A stretch of DNA of 64,000 nucleotides from positions 1-64,000 of the forward strand of contig LSSL01007374.1 in the NCBI GenBank assembly GCA_001953115.1. The letters are read 5' to 3'. Below the pieces are notes generated by a model. The model made no database searches and was not told the origin of the DNA. It saw nothing but the letters and a program-made list of their open reading frames with translations. This document shows positions 340-60,654 of this stretch, in pieces. The stretch comes from Smittium mucronatum. Taxonomy: Eukaryota > Kickxellomycota > Harpellomycetes > Harpellales > Legeriomycetaceae. The stretch's first letter is position 1. Every line of letters starts with the position of its first letter. The position numbers were made by a program, and so were the translations under genes.

Positions 340-1215
340 TTAATTTTCCCAATTGATTAAAGAGAGGATAGACCCATCCTTGGAGGATACATAGCCATGG
401 GCGATTTCTCCATCCTGGATGGATTGGAACTCGTGGACAGGAGATAGTTGACCATTCTCGGTCCTCAGGAAAGCTGGAGTTATAGTGACATCAGTATTAT
501 TTGAAAAGTATTTTGGCAAATTGGATACTTTTGCGCAAATAACAAGGTTATCATTAGTGTATTTTGATATTTGGATCTGGGCTAGTTCTTCACTGGATAG
601 CTGATAACCCAAATAGCTGGAAAGCTTAGAAAGAGAATCTCGAGTGGACAGGAATAAAGATGAGGTTTCAGGATTTGAAGGTGCGGGAGTACAAGATGTA
701 TCTCTATTAAGAGCGACCCATTTGTCAATATCGTTAAAATATTCTGGGTTAAATAGAGAACTTATGTCAGTGTCCAATTTCAATGAACGGTAAAAATTGC
801 TTCCGATAGAGAGAATGTTGCCTTGGCTGTTGAGAACAATAAGCAAATCGTCGTTAACAGCTTCAAGGCCGGATATGAAATGACCTAGATGAACTTGGTA
901 CCTCATACCCTTATCACATGTCTGGTCAGAACTCTTGACAACAAAACTCTCTTGATCAAGGCCGAATTTTTTTTGTGCATGTGATAGGGCTATTCCCTCT
1001 GCTTCTTTTGGAGTAACAACTAGAGATTCGTGGTTTAGAGTAGAGTTGGAATGTGCACTTTCTGAAGTGCTAGATGACTGTACACCGGGTGGAACGGGAT
1101 CTTCATCTCTTTCGATCAAACCTGCTTCAAGGGGACTCATGGAGGCCTGTTTGGGCAAAGGGCCAAAAGACATTCTCCTCTTTTCGTGAGAGTACGATGC
1201 TGTCTGGTCAATCAT
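340..1215 (-). CDS. Fungalysin (M36 metallopeptidase) propeptide, truncated or stand-alone
   Basis: An ORF of 291 codons from the first ATG; the frame is open two codons further, but only from a TTG. Residues 10-25 (SHEKRRMSFGPLP...) look like the segment that follows the signal peptide in fungalysins. Residues ~65-140 match the FTP domain (fungalysin/thermolysin propeptide), with the pattern FVVKSS..QVHLGHFISGLEAVNDDLLIVLNSQGNILSIGSNFY. The C-terminal ~100 residues match the rest of the M36 prodomain, ending LINWEN where the catalytic domain should follow. Two things are missing: a secretory signal peptide, and the whole peptidase domain with its HEXXH zinc site. The stop lies 3 bases from a long A/T run (319-337). 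An upstream exon is possible, because the minus strand has an AG (GACCAG) just before the conserved part. It is either a decayed protease gene or a free propeptide. The family assignment is firm; the status is not. Confidence 0.7.
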   Translation of the reverse strand: MIDQTASYSHEKRRMSFGPLPKQASMSPLEAGLIERDEDPVPPGVQSSSTSESAHSNSTLNHESLVVTPKEAEGIALSHAQKKFGLDQESFVVKSSDQTCDKGMRYQVHLGHFISGLEAVNDDLLIVLNSQGNILSIGSNFYRSLKLDTDISSLFNPEYFNDIDKWVALNRDTSCTPAPSNPETSSLFLSTRDSLSKLSSYLGYQLSSEELAQIQISKYTNDNLVICAKVSNLPKYFSNNTDVTITPAFLRTENGQLSPVHEFQSIQDGEIAHGYVSSKDGSILSLINWEN

Positions 1216-1221
1216 ATTCAA

Positions 1222-20374: not shown

Positions 20375-23300
20375 ATGGAAGGTGTTTGCAATAAGTCATC
20401 CGAAAGGATTTTGCAAGAAAAAGCGAAGAAATGGACCCAATTAAATTCAAAGAAATACTCCGAAAAAAGGAGATTCGGTTTTACTGATCACGAAAAAGCA
20501 CTAATGCCTCCTGAGCATTTACGCAAATTAATCAAAGATCACGGAGATATGACTTCCAGAAAATTCCGCCTTGATAAACGTGTATACTTGGGCGCATTAA
20601 AATATTTGCCTCATGCTGTTTTAAAGCTTTTAGAAAATATACCTATGCCTTGGGAACAGATTAGAGAAGTTCCTGTTCTGTATCATATAACTGGCGCTAT
20701 AACATTTGTCAATCAAATACCCCTTGTAATAGAGCCACTATATATTGCTCAATGGGGAACTATGTGGATAGTAATGCGTAGAGAGAAAAGGGATCGTAGA
20801 CATTTTAAAAGAATGAGATTTCCTCCTTTTGACGATGAAGAACCTCCTCTCGATTTCGGTGACAATCTTTTGGATGTTGAGCCTCTTGAAGCTATACAAA
20901 TGGAACTTGATGATGAAGAAGATTATTCAGTAAAGGAGTGGTTTTATGATAATAAAGCCTTGGTAGAAGATCCAAATCATGTAAGCGGAGATGCCTACAA
21001 ACGCTGGAATCTTACAATACCTATTATGTCTAATCTTCATCGACTGGCTGGTCAGTTATTATCTGATATTGTTGATCCAAATTACTATTATCTATTTGAT
21101 CTTAAATCTTTTATTACTGCTAAATGCCTTGGGATGGCCATTCCTGGTGGTCCCAAATTTGAACCGATGTACAAAGATATTGTTGATCCTGCGGATGAGG
21201 ACTGGAATGAATTTAACGATATTAATAAATTGATTATTAGACAGCCTATTCGCACTGAATATAAGATCGCTTTCCCTTTTCTGTACAACTCGATGCCTCG
21301 TGGAGTTCAAGTTACAAATTATCACTATCCTATGATTGTTTATGTAAAACCCGAAGATCCTGATCTCCCCGCTTTCTATTATGATCCTGTTATTAATCCT
21401 ATATCCTCCCGTAGCTTGGTTGCTGGTGTAGGAAGTTCTAACGAGGACGATCTATTTTCCGAACAAGAATCTGATTTCCAACTACCCATAAATGCCCAAC
21501 CTTTTTTGAATGACATTCCTTTATTTACTGAGAATACTGTAGGAGGTTTAAGTTTATATTGGGCTCCTCATCCTTTCAATACTCGCGCTGGAAGAATGCG
21601 TAGAGCTGAAGATATCCCTTTAGTTAAAGATTGGTATTTGGAACACTGTCCTGCTGGAATGCCAGTTAAAGTTCGCGTCTCCTATCAGAAACTTCTTAAA
21701 TGTTACGTACTAGGATTTCTGCATAAACGCTCACCCCGTGCTCTTAATAAAAAGTATCTATTCAGACAACTGAAAGCCACAAAATTTTTTCAGACTTCAG
21801 AAATCGATTGGGTTGAAGCTGGTCTCCAAGTTTGCCGCCAAGGGTATAACATGCTAAATCTATTAATACACAGAAAAAACCTCAACTATTTACATCTCGA
21901 TTATAACTTCAATCTTAAACCCGTTAAAACTTTGACTACAAAAGAGCGTAAGAAGAGTAGATTTGGTAATGCTTTCCATCTTTGTAGAGAGATACTCCGC
22001 CTTACCAAACTTATTGTAGATGCCCACGTTCAATTTCGTCTGGGGAATGTTGATGCTTTCCAGTTAGCAGATGGACTTCAGTACGCTTTTGCTCACGTAG
22101 GCCAATTAACTGGTATGTATAGGTATAAATATAGACTTATGCGACAGGTCAGAATGTGTTTTGGTCCTGATACACCCGTATTGATGGCATCAGGTCAGAC
22201 CAAATTGATCAAGAATATCAAAGTCGGTGAAACACTGGTTGGAGATGATGGTAATAAACGCATTGTAACTTCTCTTACATCCGGAAAATCTCCCTTATTT
22301 AGAATAAAGCCAGTTTCTTCATTTGGAGTTTCTATAAAGGGGCTGAAGAGATCAGCCATGGATAATGGTTTTGTCGTAAACCCTGCTCATATTCTGGTTG
22401 TCTCTTTCCCTCATTATCCCAAAGTTAGATACACCAGAAACAATCCCGATCTTATCGAAATTCAGTATGTCTCTCTTGAATTCAATGATAAGCTCAAATC
22501 TATTTTGCCAATTATCCATAAAGAGATCCTGACTTTTAAATTTAAAAATGAACTAATCCCTGAAAATCCGGATTCTATTTCTCCTCATCTGTCAAAAGAA
22601 TTAATTTCCTTGAATATTCACTCAGATGCTAATATTAAAAACAGTGCCGAAAATGATTCATATTACTCTACAAATAAAAAAATCGATTGCTCTGAAATTA
22701 GTCACAAAAATTTCAAGCATTCTAGAGCTCAGTTTGCGAGAAAGTGTATTGAAAAGCTTCCTAAGATCGAATGGGAAGTTTCTGTATCTGATTATATTCG
22801 CATATGTGATTTATATCCTGTAATCTCACAAATATCTTTTATTCCAAGAGCTAAACCAAGATTAGTCTCAAATTCCAAAGACTCAACATCAGTAGATAGG
22901 GCATCTAATATTGAGCCTTTACAGTCTTATGAAAAATTTCTTCTTATTGGGTCAATTTTATCACTGTATGTATCTTCAGAGTTTGATAATAGTATTAAAT
23001 TTAGTAACACCGGAGATTCCATCGATATTTTCATTAGTAAATCCACTAGTAATTCAACACCCTCTGTTAACAAAGATAATTATTTGCGCCTTATTTTAAA
23101 GTCACTAAAATCTTTGAACTCGAAGTTCAAGATAAATAAAAGCACAGTTGGCTATTCTTTATCTATTGAAAAATCTAACGAATTTATAAAAGTTTGTAGC
23201 GAGAGCTTTGGAATTGAATTCAATCCTCCTAAGGATTTAGATTTCTCTCTTCTCACATCCTCCCTTCAAAACGAAAGTTCGATAGCAAAAGAGAATTTTA

Positions 23301-26300
23301 TCTCCGGCGTTTTGTCCGTTTTGGGAATTAGATCCCAAACATTTAAAGGAAATGATTGTTTTATTTTGTCGCAAGAGGTCCCCGATCTGAATTCTTGCAC
23401 CACATCCAATACATTCATAGCTACAATCCATTTAATTTCATTGTCTCTTGGTTTAATTTCTGAATTGTTTGAATCAGAATCAGAATCAAATGTGTATGCT
23501 ATAATCAGCAACTTTCAATTCAGCCCCAATAAAAAAATCAGAGGTTATAGATTTGAAATTTCTAAAGAAAGCGATTATGGTAGATATTATGGTGTTTCTA
23601 TTTCAGGTTCCAATGACAAATTCTTACTTGCTGACAGCACAGTAGTCCACAACTGCAAAGACTTGAAACATTTAATTTATTATAGATTTAATACTGGCCC
23701 TGTAGGAAAGGGTCCTGGTTGTGGGTTTTGGGCCCCTTCATGGAGAGTTTGGCTCTTTTTCCTTAGAGGAATAGTCCCATTACTAGAAAGATGGCTTGGA
23801 AATCTTTTAGCTCGGCAGTTTGAAGGACGTCATTCTAAAGGCATAGCCAAAACAGTCACTAAACAACGTGTCGAATCACATTTCGATCTTGAATTGCGTG
23901 CTGCAGTTATGCACGATATAATAGACATGATGCCTGAAGGTATAAAAGCCAACAAAAGCAAAACTATTCTACAGCATTTATCTGAAGCATGGCGCTGCTG
24001 GAAAGCTAATATCCCTTGGAAGGTGCCCGGTATGCCTCAACCTATAGAAAATATGATACTGAGATATGTAAAAGCCAAGGCTGATTGGTGGACATCAGTT
24101 GCATATTACAATAGAGAAAGAATTAGAAGAGGTGCTACTGTAGACAAGGCAGTTGCAAAAAAAAATTTAGGTAGATTAACCAGACTTTACCTCAAGTCAG
24201 AGCAAGAAAGACAACATAATTACCTCAAAGATGGGCCTTATGTAACGGCTGAGGAAGCAGTTGCTGTTTTTACCACCACTGTCCATTGGCTTGAATCTCG
24301 TCGTTTTTCTCCAATTCCCTTCCCACCCTTATCTTACAAACACGATACCAAACTTCTAATTCTATCTCTGGAAAGACTACGCGAAGCTTATTCAGTTCAG
24401 GGCCGACTTAATTCTAGCCAGCGTGAAGAGTTGGGTTTAATAGAACAAGCATACGATAATCCTCACGAAACGTTAAATAGAATTAAAAGGCTTTTATTAA
24501 CCCAAAGAGCTTTTAAAGAGGTGGGTATCGAGTTTATGGACATGTACTCACATTTGATACCAGTTTATGACGTGGAGCCGTTAGAAAAAATAACTGACGC
24601 CTATTTGGATCAATACTTGTGGTACGAGGCCGATAAAAGACGATTATTCCCTGCCTGGATAAAGCCATCCGATTCAGAACCTGCCCCGTTATTAGTGTAT
24701 AAATGGTGTCAGGGAATTAATAATCTTGATTCGGTGTGGTCAACGGAAAATGGAGACTGTACTGTTATGTTTCAAACAAAGCTAAGCAGGGTTTATGAGA
24801 AAATCGACTTGACGCTACTTAATAGGCTCTTAAGGCTCATATTGGATCACAATCTTGCTGATTATATGACTGCTAAAAATAACGTTGGATTATCATTCAA
24901 AGATATGAACCATACCAATGTTTATGGTTTGATTAGAGGCTTGCAATTCGCTTCGTTTATTTTCCAATACTACGGATTGGTTTTGGATCTACTTATTCTT
25001 GGTTTACAAAGGGCAAGTGAGATTGCTGGACCCCCTCAACTTCCTAACTCATTCCTTCAATTTCGTGATGTATCTACTGAAACTCGCCATCCAATTCGTT
25101 TGTATTCCAGGTATATCGACAAAATATATATTCTTCTAAAGTTTGATGGTGAGGAGTCCCGTGATCTTATCCAGAGATATTTGACCGAACATCCAGATCC
25201 AAATAACGAAAACATTGTCGGTTACAACAACAAAAAATGTTGGCCTCGAGATTGTAGAATGAGATTGATGAAGCACGATGTTAACTTAGGCAGAGCTGTA
25301 TTTTGGGATATAAAAAATAGACTTCCTCGATCCATCACTACAATTGAATGGGATGATACGTTTGCTAGCGTTTATTCTATTGATAATCCTAATTTACTAT
25401 TTGATATGAGCGGATTTGAAGTGAGAATTTTACCTAAATCTCGACAGTTAACAGAAGAATTTAGCGTCCAAGATGGGTGTTGGGCCTTGGTTAATGAACA
25501 GACCAAAGAGAGAACTGCTATGGCTTATTTACGAATTGATGATGAATCTATAGCTAAATTTAACAATCGTATCAGGCAGATTTTAATGTCTGCTGGTAGC
25601 ACTACATTTACCAAAATAGCTAATAAATGGAATACTACTCTCATAGGCCTTATGACTTATTACCGTGAGGCTGTTGTTCACACTAGGGAGATCCTTGATT
25701 TGCTAGTTAAGGCTGAAACAAAAATCCAAACTAGAGTTAAGATAGGTCTTAATTCTAAGATGCCTTCCAGATTCCCTCCAGTTTTATTTTACTGTCCAAA
25801 GGAGCTTGGTGGTCTTGGTATGCTTAGTATGGGCCACGTATTGATTCCTCAATCGGATTTGCGCTGGTCTAAACAAACTGAAGTTGAAATTTCACATTTT
25901 AGATCCGGGATGTCTCATGATGACGACCAAATGATACCAAATCTATTTAGGTATATTCAACCATGGGAAAGTGAGTTTATTGATTCTCAGAGAGTTTGGG
26001 CCGAATACGCTTTGAAAAGACAAGAAGCCAATTCCCAAAATAGAAGACTTACGCTCGAAGATTTAGAAGATTCCTGGGATAGAGGCATACCTAGAATTAA
26101 TACATTGTTTTGTTTTGCTTTTGGTACTAAAGTTATGATGTCTGACGGATCTGATAAAAATGTTGAAGATATTGTCAATGGCGATAAAGTAATGCAGGAT
26201 ATTGGATCTGTTCCTAGAACCGTACTCAAAACGTGCGTTGGTCGAGATAGTCTTATTAAGGCGAGCTTCTCTTCCCCAGATATGGGAGGGTTTTACTGCA

Positions 26301-29300
26301 CCGGGAATCATATTTTAGTTTTAATTTCTACTCAAAGCTCGGTCAGCATGGGCCGCATCAGCGGGGAAGAAACTTTTGTGACATATTATGATTCTGAATT
26401 AAATAAGTTTCAACGCACATTTGTTAATAGTGATAAGGCGAGAACATTCATATCTGGTTTAGATCTCGAAGTAGGATCCGTTTTTGAAATTTCAGCTGAG
26501 AACTTTTTGAAGAAATCAAAGCATAATCCTTCTATTAAAGAGGATTTTGTAATGTATACTATTCCGGATGAAAATCATTCAATCAAGACATACGATTTTG
26601 ATCTTTCTGAGAGTACGGAAATGAAATTTTCCGGGTTTGAGGTTGATGGAAATGGAAGATTTGTTCTTGGGGGTGATAACAAAGGCCTTGTTGTTCATAA
26701 TTCTAAAGATAGACATACATTAGCTTATGATAAGGGTTGGCGTGTCAGAACTGAATGGAAGCAATATCAACTCCTAAAAAATAACCCTTTCTGGTGGACC
26801 AACAATAGACACGATGGAAAATTGTGGCAGCTCAACGCTTATAGAACTGACATGATACAAGCTCTTGGAGGGATTGAATGTATTTTGGAACACACCTTAT
26901 TTAAGGGTACAGCCTTCCCTACTTGGGAAGGTTTATTTTGGGAGCAAGCTTGCTTTTCAAGGGGTACACAACTTGTTCTTGAAAGCGGTTGTTTAGTGAC
27001 TGTCGAAGATATAAAGACCGGTGATCTTTTAATGGGTGATGATGGAAAACCCCGTGAAGTGACCGACTGCTGTTCTGGAATAGCACCATTGGTTTCTATA
27101 GAATTCCTAAACTCATCAAGCCTTACTGTGACGTATAACCATATTCTTTGTTTGGCATATACTCCAAGTTCTGTGTCTGATTGCCGCATTTCCAAATTAA
27201 AAGATAATACAATTGTCCTCTCCTCATCCACAAGTGAAGGCACTTTAGTCGCTAATGGAGATATAGTTGAAATAACCGTGAGAAATTATCTCCAATTACC
27301 AAATGTAGTAACTTCATCACTCCACCCATATTTAGTAGATTCCGACTATACCCGAATACTACTGGAATTTAAAAACATCGAGGATTGTGGACCTGGCGAG
27401 TATTTTGGGTTTAAGGTAAAGGGCACCGATCAAAGGTTTTTAAGACACGATAGAATGGTAGTTCATAATTCCGGATTCGAGGAAAGTATGAAATATAAGA
27501 AACTTACAAATGCACAAAGAAGTGGTTTGAACCAGATCCCTAACCGTAGATTTACATTATGGTGGTCACCTACAATCAACCGTGCAAATGTTTATGTTGG
27601 TTTCCAAGTCCAACTTGATTTGACTGGTATTTTCATGCACGGGAAACTCCCTACCCTTAAAATATCTTTAATCCAGCTATTCAGATCCCATCAATGGCAA
27701 AGAATTCACGAATCTCTGGTTATGGATCTATGTCAAATTTTAGACCAAGAACTTGAGGCTCTCCAGATTGAGACCGTCCAAAAGGAGGCTATACATCCCA
27801 GAAAATCTTATAAAATGAACAGCTCATGCTTTGATCCAAATACTCTTGTCAAATTATTCAATGGAGATGTGGTTAAGGCTGTTGATGTAAAATTTGGGGA
27901 TGTACTGTATGGGGATGATGGGTTAGGAAGAAATGTCTTGAAAACTTGGGCTGGGCATTCAAATTTGATGTTTAGCGTGCATCAATCACATGGCGACACT
28001 TATGTAGTGACTCCAAAACACATCCTTGTGTTGGTTTATTCCGGATCATCGCCTAAAATTACTATCATTCGCAAAGACATGGTAATTGCCGAATTTTATG
28101 ACAAAGATCTTGTGAAGCATTCTATAATAGTTAAAATCAACTCTATTTCAAATAGAAGAAAACGATTCAATGCTCATGGTCGAGCTTGTTCTCATAAAAA
28201 TTTTTCTTCTAGGAATTTATATATCAAAACAACTGTTTCCACGTGTATTGGAATGAAAGGGGCAATAAAACTAGCGAAAAAGTGGCTGTCACACCAGTTA
28301 GAAATCTTGCCTCACTTGTCACCCGGTATGGTTGTTGAAATAACAGCTTCTAGATTTTACAATTTGCCTGTGTTTACTCAAAAAACCCTTAAAGGTTTTA
28401 AATCTTTTGACAAGCCTGACCCAATACATCTACTAAATTCCATTAGTGAAATCAGGATTTCCCCTATCAGAAAGCCAAATCAAACTTTTATTGGGATAAC
28501 TACTGATGGTAACCAAAGATTCTTGCTTAAAGACGATACCGTTGTGCATAATTGTGCAGATATACTTCTATTTGCAGCATATAAATGGTCTGTATCTACA
28601 CCTTCCCTGTTGACAGATTCCCGGGATAGAATGGATGCAGCCACAACCCAGAAGTTCTGGATTGATGTTCAGCTGAGATGGGGTGATTTTGATTCACATG
28701 ATATCGAAAGGTATACTAGAGCAAAGTTTTTGGACTACACTACAGATAATATGTCGATATACCCATCTCCCACTGGTGTGATGATTGGTTTTGACCTGGC
28801 ATACAATCTGTATTCTGCATATGGTAATTGGTTCCCTGGAATGAAGCCATTACTGCAACAGGCTATGGCTAAAATAAACAAAGCTAACCCTGCGCTATAT
28901 GTTTTAAGAGAGCGCATCAGAAAAGCTTTGCAGTTATACTCTTCCGATCCAACTGAACCTTACCTTAATTCTCAGAATTACGGAGAACTATTTAGCAATC
29001 AAACAATCTGGTTTATTGATGACACCAATGTTTATAGGGTTACCATCCATAAAACATTTGAAGGAAACCTTACAACAAAACCTATAAATGGTGCTATCTT
29101 CATTTTTAATCCTCGCACCGGTCAATTGTTCCTCAAGGTAATTCACACCTCAGTATGGGCTGGGCAGAAACGTTTGGGCCAGCTTGCTAAATGGAAAACT
29201 GCTGAGGAAGTTGCAGCTTTGATCAGATCATTACCTGCTGAAGAGCAACCTCGCCAGCTAATTGTCACGCGTAAAGGGATGCTTGATCCACTAGAAGTTC

Positions 29301-30802
29301 ATCTTTTAGATTTCCCAAACATTGTGGTAAAAGGATCAGAGCTTCAATTGCCTTTCCAAGCCTGTCTTAAAATCGAAAAATTTGGCGATTTAATTTTAAA
29401 AGCAAATGAACCCCAGATGGTTCTTTTTAACCTTTATGATGACTGGCTCAAGACAATATCATCTTACACCGCGTTTTCAAGACTAGTGTTGATTCTTCGT
29501 TCCCTCCATGTAAACAACGAAAAAACCAAAATAATTCTTAGACCCGATAAAACTACTTACACTGAGCCGCATCATGTTTGGCCCACACTTACAGACGATC
29601 AATGGGTTAGTGTTGAAAATAGCTTAAAAGATTTAATTTTAGGCGATTATGGTAAGAAAAATAATGTTAATGTCGCTAGTTTGACTCAATCTGAGATCAG
29701 AGATATTATTCTCGGTATGGAAATTCAGGCCCCTTCTCTCCAAAGGCAGCAGATAGCTGAAATGGAAAAACAAGCTAAGGAACAGACTCAACTCACCGCA
29801 GTAACAACCAAGACTCATAATATTCACGGAGATGAAATTATTGTCACCACTACTAGTAGTTATGAAACCCAAACTTTCGCCTCTAAATCAGAATGGAGAA
29901 TTCGAGCAATCTCTGCCCAGAACCTCCCTCTTCGTACTAATCATCTCTACGTTATGAGTGATGATATTAGGGAGGAGGGCTTTACTTACGTGCTTTCAAA
30001 AAATCTTTTAAAGCACTTTATAACAATTTCTGATCTTCGTACTCAAGTGTCTGGGTATCTTTTTGGAGTTTCTCCACCCGATAATCCTAGTGTAAAAGAA
30101 ATTCGTGCTGTAGTTATGGTTCCACAGTGGGCTTCTCAACAGGACATTTATTTGCCAAATCAACTTCCTATGCATCCATACTTAGACGATTTGGAGCCAC
30201 TTGGATGGATGCACACCATGCCCAATGAATTACCTATGCTTTCTCCACACGATACCGCTTTACATTCTAAACTTTTGGTAGCATCTACTAATCCTCATTT
30301 TTCTAAGAAAAAATGGGATAGTGACTCTTCAATTGTAATAACATGCGCATTCACTCCAGGCTCCTGCTCTCTAAGTGCTTACAAACTGACCCCATCCGGA
30401 TATGAATGGTCACAGAAGTTAATAGGCGATCTAACTCTTTCGTTAAGCAGTTTTGATCCTGATGCCACCAATTCGTCCACCTCAAACTCATTAAGTCTTA
30501 GCCAAATGGGAATGACCAATTTAGTTGGAGAAGGTGCTAATACTTACACTCCATCCTGCTATGAAAGGGTGCAACTATTGCTGTCGGATAGATTTAACGG
30601 CTTTTTCATGGTACCTAATGATGGTGGAATATGGAATTACAACTTCATGGGCCCTAGCCATAGACCTGATATGACATTCGGTTTATCTCTTGATGTCCCA
30701 TTATCATTCTATGACCAAAGGCACAGGCCAAGCCACTTTTTGAACTTTTCTGAAATCGAATCACCAAACGATGAGGCTGACTTTGAAGATCAGTTTAGCT
30801 GA
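20375..30802 (+). CDS. PRP8: Pre-mRNA-processing-splicing factor 8, with four inteins
   Basis: Prp8 is the central U5 snRNP protein that cradles the catalytic RNA core of the spliceosome in the nucleus. The precursor has 3475 residues; removing four inteins (499, 197, 173 and 242 aa) leaves 2364, close to the usual ~2330-2400. The start is well placed: the conserved N-terminal block (LQEKAKKW ... [16 protein letters not shown]) begins within 15 residues of Met1. The extein keeps the family order: PRO8NT, PROCN, RRM-like, U5- and U6-snRNA-binding regions, the RNase H-like domain IV ([16 protein letters not shown]) and the C-terminal Jab1/MPN domain ([20 protein letters not shown]). A Ser-rich insert of ~30 residues sits inside the MPN domain. 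There are no introns in 10.4 kb. GC is well above the flanks, as expected for a conserved gene. Intein positions relative to the extein are after residues 594, 1413, 1496 and 1615. Confidence 0.97.
22157..23653 (+). other. Intein 1 of PRP8 (499 aa, relic homing endonuclease)
   Basis: Precursor residues 595-1093, inserted between ...LMRQVRM and CKDLKHL. It begins with Cys595 in a typical block A ([14 protein letters not shown]), followed by [10 protein letters not shown], and ends with block F/G ([11 protein letters not shown], His1092-Asn1093) before Cys +1. Block B reads NPAH (669-672): the histidine is kept but the usual Thr of TxxH is Asn. The ~330-residue middle holds two decayed LAGLIDADG motifs, [11 protein letters not shown] (856-866) and [10 protein letters not shown] (975-984). 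Their acidic positions are Leu864 and Ser981, so nuclease activity should be lost. The frame is still open because loss of frame would kill PRP8. Its +1 Cys is a native Prp8 residue in other eukaryotes as I recall the family. Confidence 0.93.
26111..26701 (+). other. Intein 2 of PRP8 (197 aa mini-intein)
   Basis: Precursor residues 1913-2109, inserted between [10 protein letters not shown] and [13 protein letters not shown]. Cys1913 starts block A ([14 protein letters not shown]); block B is TGNH (1976-1979); the end is [10 protein letters not shown] ... GLVVHN (His2108-Asn2109). There is no room for an endonuclease. The +1 residue is Ser2110. In the Prp8 proteins I remember, this position is Gln, which cannot serve as the acceptor nucleophile, so the host gene appears to carry a Gln-to-Ser change at the junction. 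All splicing residues look intact. Confidence 0.93.
26951..27469 (+). other. Intein 3 of PRP8 (173 aa mini-intein, PRP8-a type site)
   Basis: Precursor residues 2193-2365, inserted between EGLFWEQA and [11 protein letters not shown]. From memory this is the site of the well-known PRP8-a inteins of Cryptococcus and Aspergillus. Block A is [14 protein letters not shown] with [12 protein letters not shown]; block B is TYNH (2253-2256); the end is [13 protein letters not shown] ... MVVHN (His2364-Asn2365), with native Ser +1. It lies only 83 extein residues after intein 2. Both splicing centres look intact, and at 173 residues it is close to the practical minimum for a splicing domain. Confidence 0.93.
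27827..28552 (+). other. Intein 4 of PRP8 (242 aa mini-intein)
   Basis: Precursor residues 2485-2726, inserted between RKSYKMNSS and [12 protein letters not shown], 119 extein residues after intein 3. Block A is [14 protein letters not shown] with [12 protein letters not shown]; block B is TPKH (2546-2549); the end is [20 protein letters not shown] (His2725-Asn2726), with native Cys +1. The middle ~90 residues are basic ([18 protein letters not shown]) and show no LAGLIDADG motif. They may be what is left after endonuclease loss. Confidence 0.93.
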
Positions 30803-31109
30803 TTCGATTTATTTTGAATTATTTCTTTATATTCGTTAATCCATTTTTTATCTTTTTTATTTTATGTGAACTATATATTAAATATCTACTTTAATCGCTC
30901 TTTTGCTTCACTGGCCATTTTTTGGAAATTAATAGTCAGAAAACACGAAAAAGTTGTTTTGTCTTCGAGCGTTTTTTTTTAAAAAAAATAGAAAAATCAA
31001 ATAAGATATATCCCACTGACCGATTCGCCAAAAACTAGAGAAATAAGCCCAAAAACATCTTTTGCTTCCCTTAGCCTTTTTTGAAAAAACGAAGCAGAAA
31101 ACACGTCAA
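30803..31109 (+). other. PRP8 3' flank with an imperfect direct repeat
   Basis: AT-rich sequence after the TGA-GATTCG end of PRP8 that must hold its polyadenylation site; no canonical AATAAA is obvious. A ~47-base segment (30901-30948, TTTTGCTTC ... CAGAAAACACG) recurs imperfectly at 31060-31105, right before the LINE fragment. Confidence 0.4.
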
Positions 31110-31690
31110 GCTATATGCCAGGGGCCCTAGATCGCGGAATAAAAAATTCTGGAAGTTGGATAAAACTTCAAGCCCTGTTTCAAAATCAGCGAATAGGCTT
31201 CCAGGAAATCGGAAAAATCCGAATTGGCCAATTTTGGACCGTTCAACGCCTGGCCAACGCCAAAATCATTAATGGAAAATTCAAATTTTTTTGTCCTTTT
31301 TGCAAAAAAAAGACGCCAGAGACAATCGAGCACTTACTTTTAGTGTGCGAAAAATGGGACAACGTCCGTAGGAATACAATGGAGCGATTTTTTTTCCCAA
31401 AGTATAATTTTTGGAGAGAGTGTTAGCGTTTCTTCTTCTGATCCAGCTCAATTGGAGCAGATCTGAAAACTCCTTGGGGGGGGGGGGTCTAAAAAATCTT
31501 TTTGTCAGCTCCGCGATAAATTTGAATTTTTTAAAACCATAAAAGTTAACAGTTAAGCTTTAAACCTCAAAGGTGGACACTTGGTACTAATATACCAGAC
31601 CAAGTGTACTAAATAGCAAAAAACGGCTCTCTTTCGGTTTCCGTGTGGTAAAAATCACGGCTCAAATAGATATATTTTAAGCTATAAAAC
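31110..31690 (+). mobile_element. 5'-truncated LINE (zinc-finger family), copy A
   Basis: The open stretch 31115-31426 encodes the C-terminal end of a non-LTR retrotransposon ORF2. It ends in a reverse-transcriptase zinc-binding motif (CPFCKKKTPETIEHLLLVCEKW), with C..C, H and C at the spacing usual for LINE tails. The same protein segment and the following 3' region, including a poly-G run (31478-31491) and the segment (G/C)GGTAAAAA...CTCAAATAGA, occur again at 36750-37500. The element begins at about 31110, so it is strongly 5' truncated, as is common for LINEs. Confidence 0.8.
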
Positions 31691-60535: not shown

Positions 60536-60654
60536 GACTCACGGCACGCCGTATTCCCGTGCGGTCTCCCACCACAGTACTGACGACGCCATCACCAGCT
60601 TAACTTCAAAGATCGGACGGGATTTGGTGCTTTATGGTGTGAATGGACGTAAGA
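60536..60654 (-). rRNA. 5S ribosomal RNA gene (or 5S-derived retroelement head)
   Basis: The minus strand matches the eukaryotic 5S rRNA pattern over its full ~119 bases. It starts TCTTACGTCCATTCACACC, continues CCCGTCCGATCTTTGAAG TTAAGC, and contains the C-box-like GTCAGTACTGTGGTGGGAGACCGC, then GGGAATACGGCGTGCCGTGAG. The ends can pair (CTTACG with CGTGAG), giving helix I. The internal promoter boxes look conserved. No T-run follows the 3' end: the first TTTT on the minus strand is near 60466, so a Pol III transcript could run about 70 bases beyond the normal 5S end, through the module also found at 11795. It is therefore either a dispersed functional 5S gene or the head of a 5S-derived (SINE3-like) element. 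Confidence 0.85.

Follow-up and report, generated by a model that had tools for sequence, protein, structure and literature searches.

Inteins in the spliceosomal protein Prp8 have been described at seven insertion sites, lettered a to g in the available text of PMC6805012, and the accessible part of a 2023 article calls more than one intein in a single eukaryotic species rare (PMC10849329). The described system closest to the one treated here is the Prp8-a intein of Cryptococcus neoformans (PDB 6mwy and 6mx6), a fungus presented in the text available as having one intein in Prp8. Several inteins in one conserved gene are also on record from prokaryotes, namely four in the ribonucleotide reductase of Trichodesmium, as quoted in an excerpt of PMC1635734, and four intein sites in the haloarchaeal MCM according to the available text of PMC10643990. 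Here we analyse a window of 64,000 nucleotides, i.e., positions 1 to 64,000 of contig LSSL01007374.1 (assembly GCA_001953115.1) from Smittium mucronatum. This fungus belongs to the Harpellales, which are placed in Kickxellomycotina by the NCBI taxonomy and are insect-gut commensals according to the available part of PMC5954228. The forward-strand segment 20375-30802 is very probably one Prp8 gene with four inteins that, judged from sequence, would be of class 1, old, fixed and immobile, and would each need to splice. Intein 3 aligns over its full length with the Cryptococcus intein (E 1.9e-9); both are mini-inteins with Cys1 and a final HN and share the insertion site, but the Prp8 of S. mucronatum has three more. 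The prokaryotic cases concern replication or nucleotide metabolism, whereas here a eukaryotic spliceosome gene is interrupted and no endonuclease is recognisable.

Architecture of the Prp8 gene

The gene is a single, uninterrupted open reading frame (ORF) of 3475 codons that begins with ATG, and it is the sole closed ORF of at least 300 amino acids (aa) in the window. Pfam recognises in it PRO8NT, PROCN, RRM_4, the U5_2- and U6-snRNA binding domains, domain IV and PROCT, and human Prp8 aligns from near the start through the C-terminus in six stretches with five breaks between them. The inserts account for four of the breaks and, as the earlier note had counted, for 1111 of the 3475 residues (499 + 197 + 173 + 242), while the exteins alone amount to 2364 aa. 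The fifth break, near the C-terminus, is a 37-residue linker of low similarity (residues 3348-3384) in which no intein features were seen. The parts are the following, all on the forward strand:

20375..22156, +, Prp8 extein 1: residues 1-594; PRO8NT and the first part of PROCN
22157..23653, +, intein 1: residues 595-1093, 499 aa; extein site 594, before the match of human C605; splits Pfam PROCN; centre degenerate where relatives have an endonuclease; +1 Cys
23654..26110, +, Prp8 extein 2: 819 residues
26111..26701, +, intein 2: residues 1913-2109, 197 aa; extein site 1413, before the match of human Q1424; mini-intein; +1 Ser
26702..26950, +, Prp8 extein 3: 83 residues
26951..27469, +, intein 3: residues 2193-2365, 173 aa; extein site 1496, before the match of human S1507; mini-intein splitting Pfam U6-snRNA_bdg at the classic Prp8-a site (1585 loop); +1 Ser
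27470..27826, +, Prp8 extein 4: 119 residues
27827..28552, +, intein 4: residues 2485-2726, 242 aa; extein site 1615, before the match of human C1626; no endonuclease domain recognised; +1 Cys
28553..30802, +, Prp8 extein 5 and stop: 749 residues; domain IV core and C-terminal domain

All four inserts start with CF, which provides the Cys1 nucleophile of class 1 inteins, and end in VVHN, followed by a +1 residue that is C, S, S and C for inteins 1 to 4. The proposal that four inteins with intact terminal splicing residues interrupt one intron-free PRP8 is thereby borne out. The block-B His is likewise present in each (NPAH, TGNH, TYNH and TPKH), intein 1 having Asn in place of the Thr of TxxH. 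Pfam Hom_end_hint matched with 78, 59, 55 and 36 bits, respectively, against a cut-off of 32.1, and a profile built from the four inteins matched the solved structures of PI-SceI (E 7.5e-18) and of the Cryptococcus Prp8 intein (E 1.4e-16), so that the Hint fold is predicted for them. Intein 3 precedes the Ser of the motif WE(K/Q)A/SGFEES (the second slash marking the insertion), which identifies its position as Prp8-a. The extein is continuous over all four junctions in human Prp8, and over junctions 1 to 4 in 178, 182, 75 and 183 empty-site proteins, respectively. Three observations weigh against this assignment. The alignment with PI-SceI is good in the N-terminal part, but the C-terminal end is weak alone (13.5 bits); the same four-intein profile matches two designed proteins at about 8e-6, which we have taken as chance; and intein 4 alone resembles known structures weakly (PDB E 0.005). 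The site of intein 4 (1615) holds an intein in 11 further mapped proteins.

The exteins have a GC content at third codon positions of 0.32, the inteins of 0.29-0.31, and the window as a whole contains 28% GC; true Smittium genomes span 71-102 Mb with 26-29% GC (available text of PMC5954228). Each of two extein probes found one Prp8 place in the assembly (73.8 Mb, 2957 contigs), and no second or intein-free Prp8 copy was detected with them. A scan of the assembly with PF05203 returned these four places only, and PF14890, PF05204 and TIGR01445 had no match in it, PF14890 and TIGR01445 also missing the four inteins described here, so that inteins of other types may have gone undetected. Two weak PF14528 (LAGLIDADG_3) matches on the last contig, C2957, may be mitochondrial intron endonucleases.

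Could the four segments instead be spliceosomal introns, removed from the mRNA? The public gene models of S. simulii (at site 1413) and S. megazygosporum (at site 594) omit an intein end in an intron-like manner, as this explanation would have it. We nevertheless consider it extremely improbable and reject it, on the reading frame, the stop counts and the absence of a restoring excision. The segments code for Hint domains, each length is divisible by 3, and the Prp8 frame contains no stop in any of them, while the other two forward frames contain 11 to 62 stops each; the chance of a stop-free frame, given the composition, is 2e-16, 3e-7, 8e-6 and 2e-8 for inteins 1 to 4. When excisions with GT-AG or GC-AG ends were sought up to 13 bases from the junctions, none restored the host protein at any of the four sites, the closest candidate, at intein 1, swapping a conserved Lys for Phe. 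The S. simulii and S. megazygosporum models lose, near residues 1898 and 1088 respectively, the intein end plus adjoining extein; gene models clipped in this way could conceal such inteins from surveys.

Occupancy in relatives and origin of the inteins

Three protein searches provided 198 Prp8 proteins that were mapped, and one further protein that was not Prp8. The two main listings comprised 120 of 2959 and 120 of 2950 matches, and the counts given below hold among the matches listed; one query contained inteins and favours intein carriers, the other was intein-free. The first 120 proteins presented 225 inserts, of which 3 were dropped before scoring and 222 scored, 207 with clean junctions and 15 without. 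Two of these 15 (S. simulii and S. megazygosporum) look like gene-model faults, and another six, in which the extein downstream of site 1496 has diverged (five Coemansia and the protein P0064), were accepted, for a total of 213 inteins. In the final mapping, 258 inteins were accepted, and 14 inserts lacked a clean junction.

Accepted inteins numbered zero in 63 of the 179 near full-length proteins, one in 86, two in 7, three in 4, four in 8, five in 5, six in 3, eight in 1 and nine in 2. They occupy at least 19 sites, four of them each in a single protein, and site 1496 (Prp8-a) is the commonest, with 117 of the 198 proteins. Site 536 is probably the published site g, because the Acytostelium protein carries it. 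The statement of the earlier note that Prp8 usually has one intein per gene agrees with the available text of published papers, but four or more are common in the sampled relatives, and its view that four in one protein is unusual did not survive the comparison. Among the matches listed, 20 of the 28 Kickxellomycotina Prp8 proteins (chosen by genus name, the window gene and four partial proteins included) have at least four inserts and 6 have three, unclean junctions being counted; when accepted inteins alone are counted, at least four are present in 19 of 28, and in the intein-free-query listing alone 14 of 21. Linderina pennispora and Coemansia mojavensis have zero inserts. At the other end, nine clean-junction inteins make up 3658 of the 6000 residues of Dimargaris xerosporica Prp8, although a strict block-B pattern misses the ones at sites 708 and 1583; D. 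verticillata likewise carries nine inteins, and D. cristalligena eight. The four inteins of S. mucronatum are the modest end of a lineage-wide pile-up. The intein count exceeds any that we found described for a eukaryotic gene in the open-licence literature, in which no report of multiple inteins in Kickxellomycotina Prp8 was found (preprints and subscription papers being outside this scope).

The closest relatives share the pattern. S. culicis has the identical four sites occupied, S. simulii has them too when the clipped model at site 1413 is counted, and S. megazygosporum has three (site 594 clipped), its intein 3 site (1496) being empty. Their inteins are similar in size to those of the window and 35-62% identical to the same-site ones (two of the three models being clipped), with extein identities of 94.6% for S. 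culicis, 90.0% for S. simulii and 89.2% for S. megazygosporum. All four sites are also occupied in D. xerosporica, D. verticillata and Dispira simplex; the two Dimargaris species carry nine inteins each, and the D. xerosporica inteins at the shared sites match an endonuclease profile with which those of the window score 11 bits at most. Many of the listed Coemansia proteins, too, have four or more inserts. Among the matches listed, Entrophospora and Cetraspora also have inteins at site 594, as do Geranomyces and the blastocladiomycete Sorochytrium at site 1615. A search with intein 1 alone returned, besides itself, S. culicis, D. cristalligena and a weak RNA-polymerase match (E 0.0075); since it scored the best 8000 word-sharing candidates and missed the same-site S. 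simulii intein, its non-matches mean little.

Three further observations came out of this mapping. The Prp8 of the metamonad Anaeramoeba ignava contains four clean inteins, three of them at sites used by fungi (1307, 1496 and 1583), hinting that the sharing of sites is ancient or came about by transfer. Four proteins (P0014, P0017, P0034 and P0053) have different-looking inteins at sites 1662 and 1789, which start with CFP, have DH soon after, and end in GN followed by S or T rather than in HN. Finally, among the 182 proteins without an intein at site 1413, the +1 position is Ser or Cys in 40 and Gln in 140, while carriers have Ser or Cys; the Ser or Cys at empty sites could be a trace left by inteins since lost, or an ancestral residue that was permissive.

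The origin of the four inteins was examined with a tree of intein ends (127 of the 213 inteins, 154 columns), from which D. verticillata (P0008) was omitted and in which one in six was kept of the site-1496 inteins from most hosts with a single intein. Constrained trees were obtained by a fast search first, then by full searches, and retested. One could imagine that a single intein was copied within the gene in the Smittium lineage and produced all four: they have one common fold and are 28-37% identical to one another, about as alike as they are to the same-site Dimargaris inteins (25-38%). The chance of this is minimal, and we rule such copying out, because each of the four has as its nearest neighbour the same-site intein of S. 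culicis, and a single clade of all Smittium inteins is rejected by the approximately unbiased (AU) test (p = 0.002). The check that the earlier note had proposed, a Hint-domain tree separating copies from separate arrivals, thus indicates that none is a recent copy of another. Inteins 2, 3 and 4 again have a same-site intein as their nearest neighbour outside Smittium, and site 1615 forms one group with good support (88.5/98).

Separate descent at each site is less clear further back, and several results speak against it. For intein 1, a site-1307 intein and a same-site intein tie as nearest outside Smittium (2.161 versus 2.162). Monophyly of each of the four sites was rejected in the fast search and barely not rejected in the full search (p = 0.063); sites 594 and 1496 are non-monophyletic in the best tree; and the support for site 1413 as one group is weak (49/27). 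Judging from these trees, older exchange between sites may have taken place. In unrooted within-site trees for 594, 1413 and 1615, which include two partial sequences, the Smittium inteins lie on one branch and those of the window and S. culicis pair in all three, while the pairing of S. simulii with S. megazygosporum has some support at 1413 (87/90), is unsupported at 1615 (7/34) and is absent at 594. These trees fit inheritance from a Smittium ancestor, without being proof for each species.

Inteins 2 to 4 are clustered, with gaps of 249 and 357 bp between them. The clustering claimed in the earlier note stands, and the 203 extein residues given for it become 202 by our count from the second to the fourth insert. 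Since joint homing of two neighbouring haloarchaeal inteins into an empty gene is inefficient, as stated in the available part of PMC10643990, we infer that the clustered inteins were more likely gained singly.

Endonuclease loss, persistence and predicted splicing

The endonuclease profile was built in four iterations from the middle parts of other Prp8 inteins; its final round raised the matches from 89 to 135, which points to drift, and strong matches alone were used. It recognises the D. xerosporica inteins at sites 594, 1413, 1496 and 1615 with E values of 9e-17, 4e-29, 1e-30 and 6e-38, respectively. With the same profile, inteins 1, 2 and 4 of the window have no match and intein 3 has 11 bits, taken as chance; no Pfam endonuclease matches any of the four. 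The LAGLIDADG homing endonuclease expected of a mobile intein is therefore not recognisable in them, which suggests that they are now probably inherited vertically. Intein 1 has kept its length, but in its centre neither aligned motif position, acidic in LAGLIDADG endonucleases, holds an acidic residue. Against a complete loss stands the intein 1 of S. culicis, which scores 13.8 bits with the profile and may retain a remnant of the endonuclease. Between the window and S. culicis, the intein ends are 55-77% identical and the middles 38-44%, as expected if splicing is under selection.

Persistence without homing fits the homing cycle set out in the available text of PMC1654191: once an intein is fixed, selection on its endonuclease ceases, and an intein can be lost precisely by recombination with an intein-free allele. 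The inteins would be retained because splicing must go on working and their exact removal from the DNA is rare.

In class 1 chemistry, an N-S shift at Cys1 is followed by transfer to the Cys or Ser at +1, cyclisation of the Asn and ligation of the peptides. As far as the residues indicate, the mechanism in Smittium Prp8 is the ordinary one: the 3475-aa precursor would be translated whole, each Hint domain would excise itself, and the four excisions would leave a Prp8 of 2364 aa. From this anatomy it follows that every spliceosome would depend on four protein-splicing reactions. It is most unlikely that any of the inteins has lost splicing and persists in mature Prp8 as a tolerated insert: all four retain intact terminal and block-B residues, and the splicing ends are better conserved than the middles. 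Inserts at the Prp8 sites, which cluster around the active site, would presumably be disruptive according to the available part of PMC6805012.

A more consequential possibility is that the inteins serve as a conditional switch, stress slowing one or more of the splicing steps and thereby delaying the maturation of Prp8 and pre-mRNA splicing. Copper and zinc inhibit the Cryptococcus Prp8 intein (available text of PMC6805012), which shares its site with intein 3, and the four sites remain occupied across several Smittium species without a recognisable endonuclease. Rare precise loss predicts the same persistence, however, and the empty intein 3 site in the S. megazygosporum model, together with the two insert-free relatives L. 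pennispora and C. mojavensis, implies that the intein set is dispensable in evolution; we regard the switch as unlikely. Fixed inteins that splice in the ordinary way remain the reading that we prefer. A broader joint claim, an intein ratchet, goes beyond it: Kickxellomycotina Prp8 would gain inteins at many sites and lose their endonucleases, and exit would be blocked because no intein-free allele is left as a template. Whole lineages would then make their spliceosome core only via four to nine protein-splicing reactions, and maturation would become rate-limiting and stress-sensitive. Taken in all its parts, this claim is speculative and we hold it doubtful.

Neighbouring features and wider meaning

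Just downstream of Prp8 in the window, a short open frame (31085-31426, +) has a weak zf-RVT match below the cut-off and is possibly a retroelement remnant. A 5S rRNA gene (Rfam RF00001, 92 bits) lies at 60536-60654 (-), and an open frame of 293 aa at 340-1221 (-) has no Pfam match.

This gene, and even more so the related ones, where up to nine inteins and at least 19 sites are seen, revise the picture of rare multiple eukaryotic inteins and of seven sites in Prp8. Ranging from none to nine inteins, with an endonuclease or lacking one, they form a natural series in which the gain, fixation and loss of inteins can be tested, as well as whether inteins tune RNA splicing.

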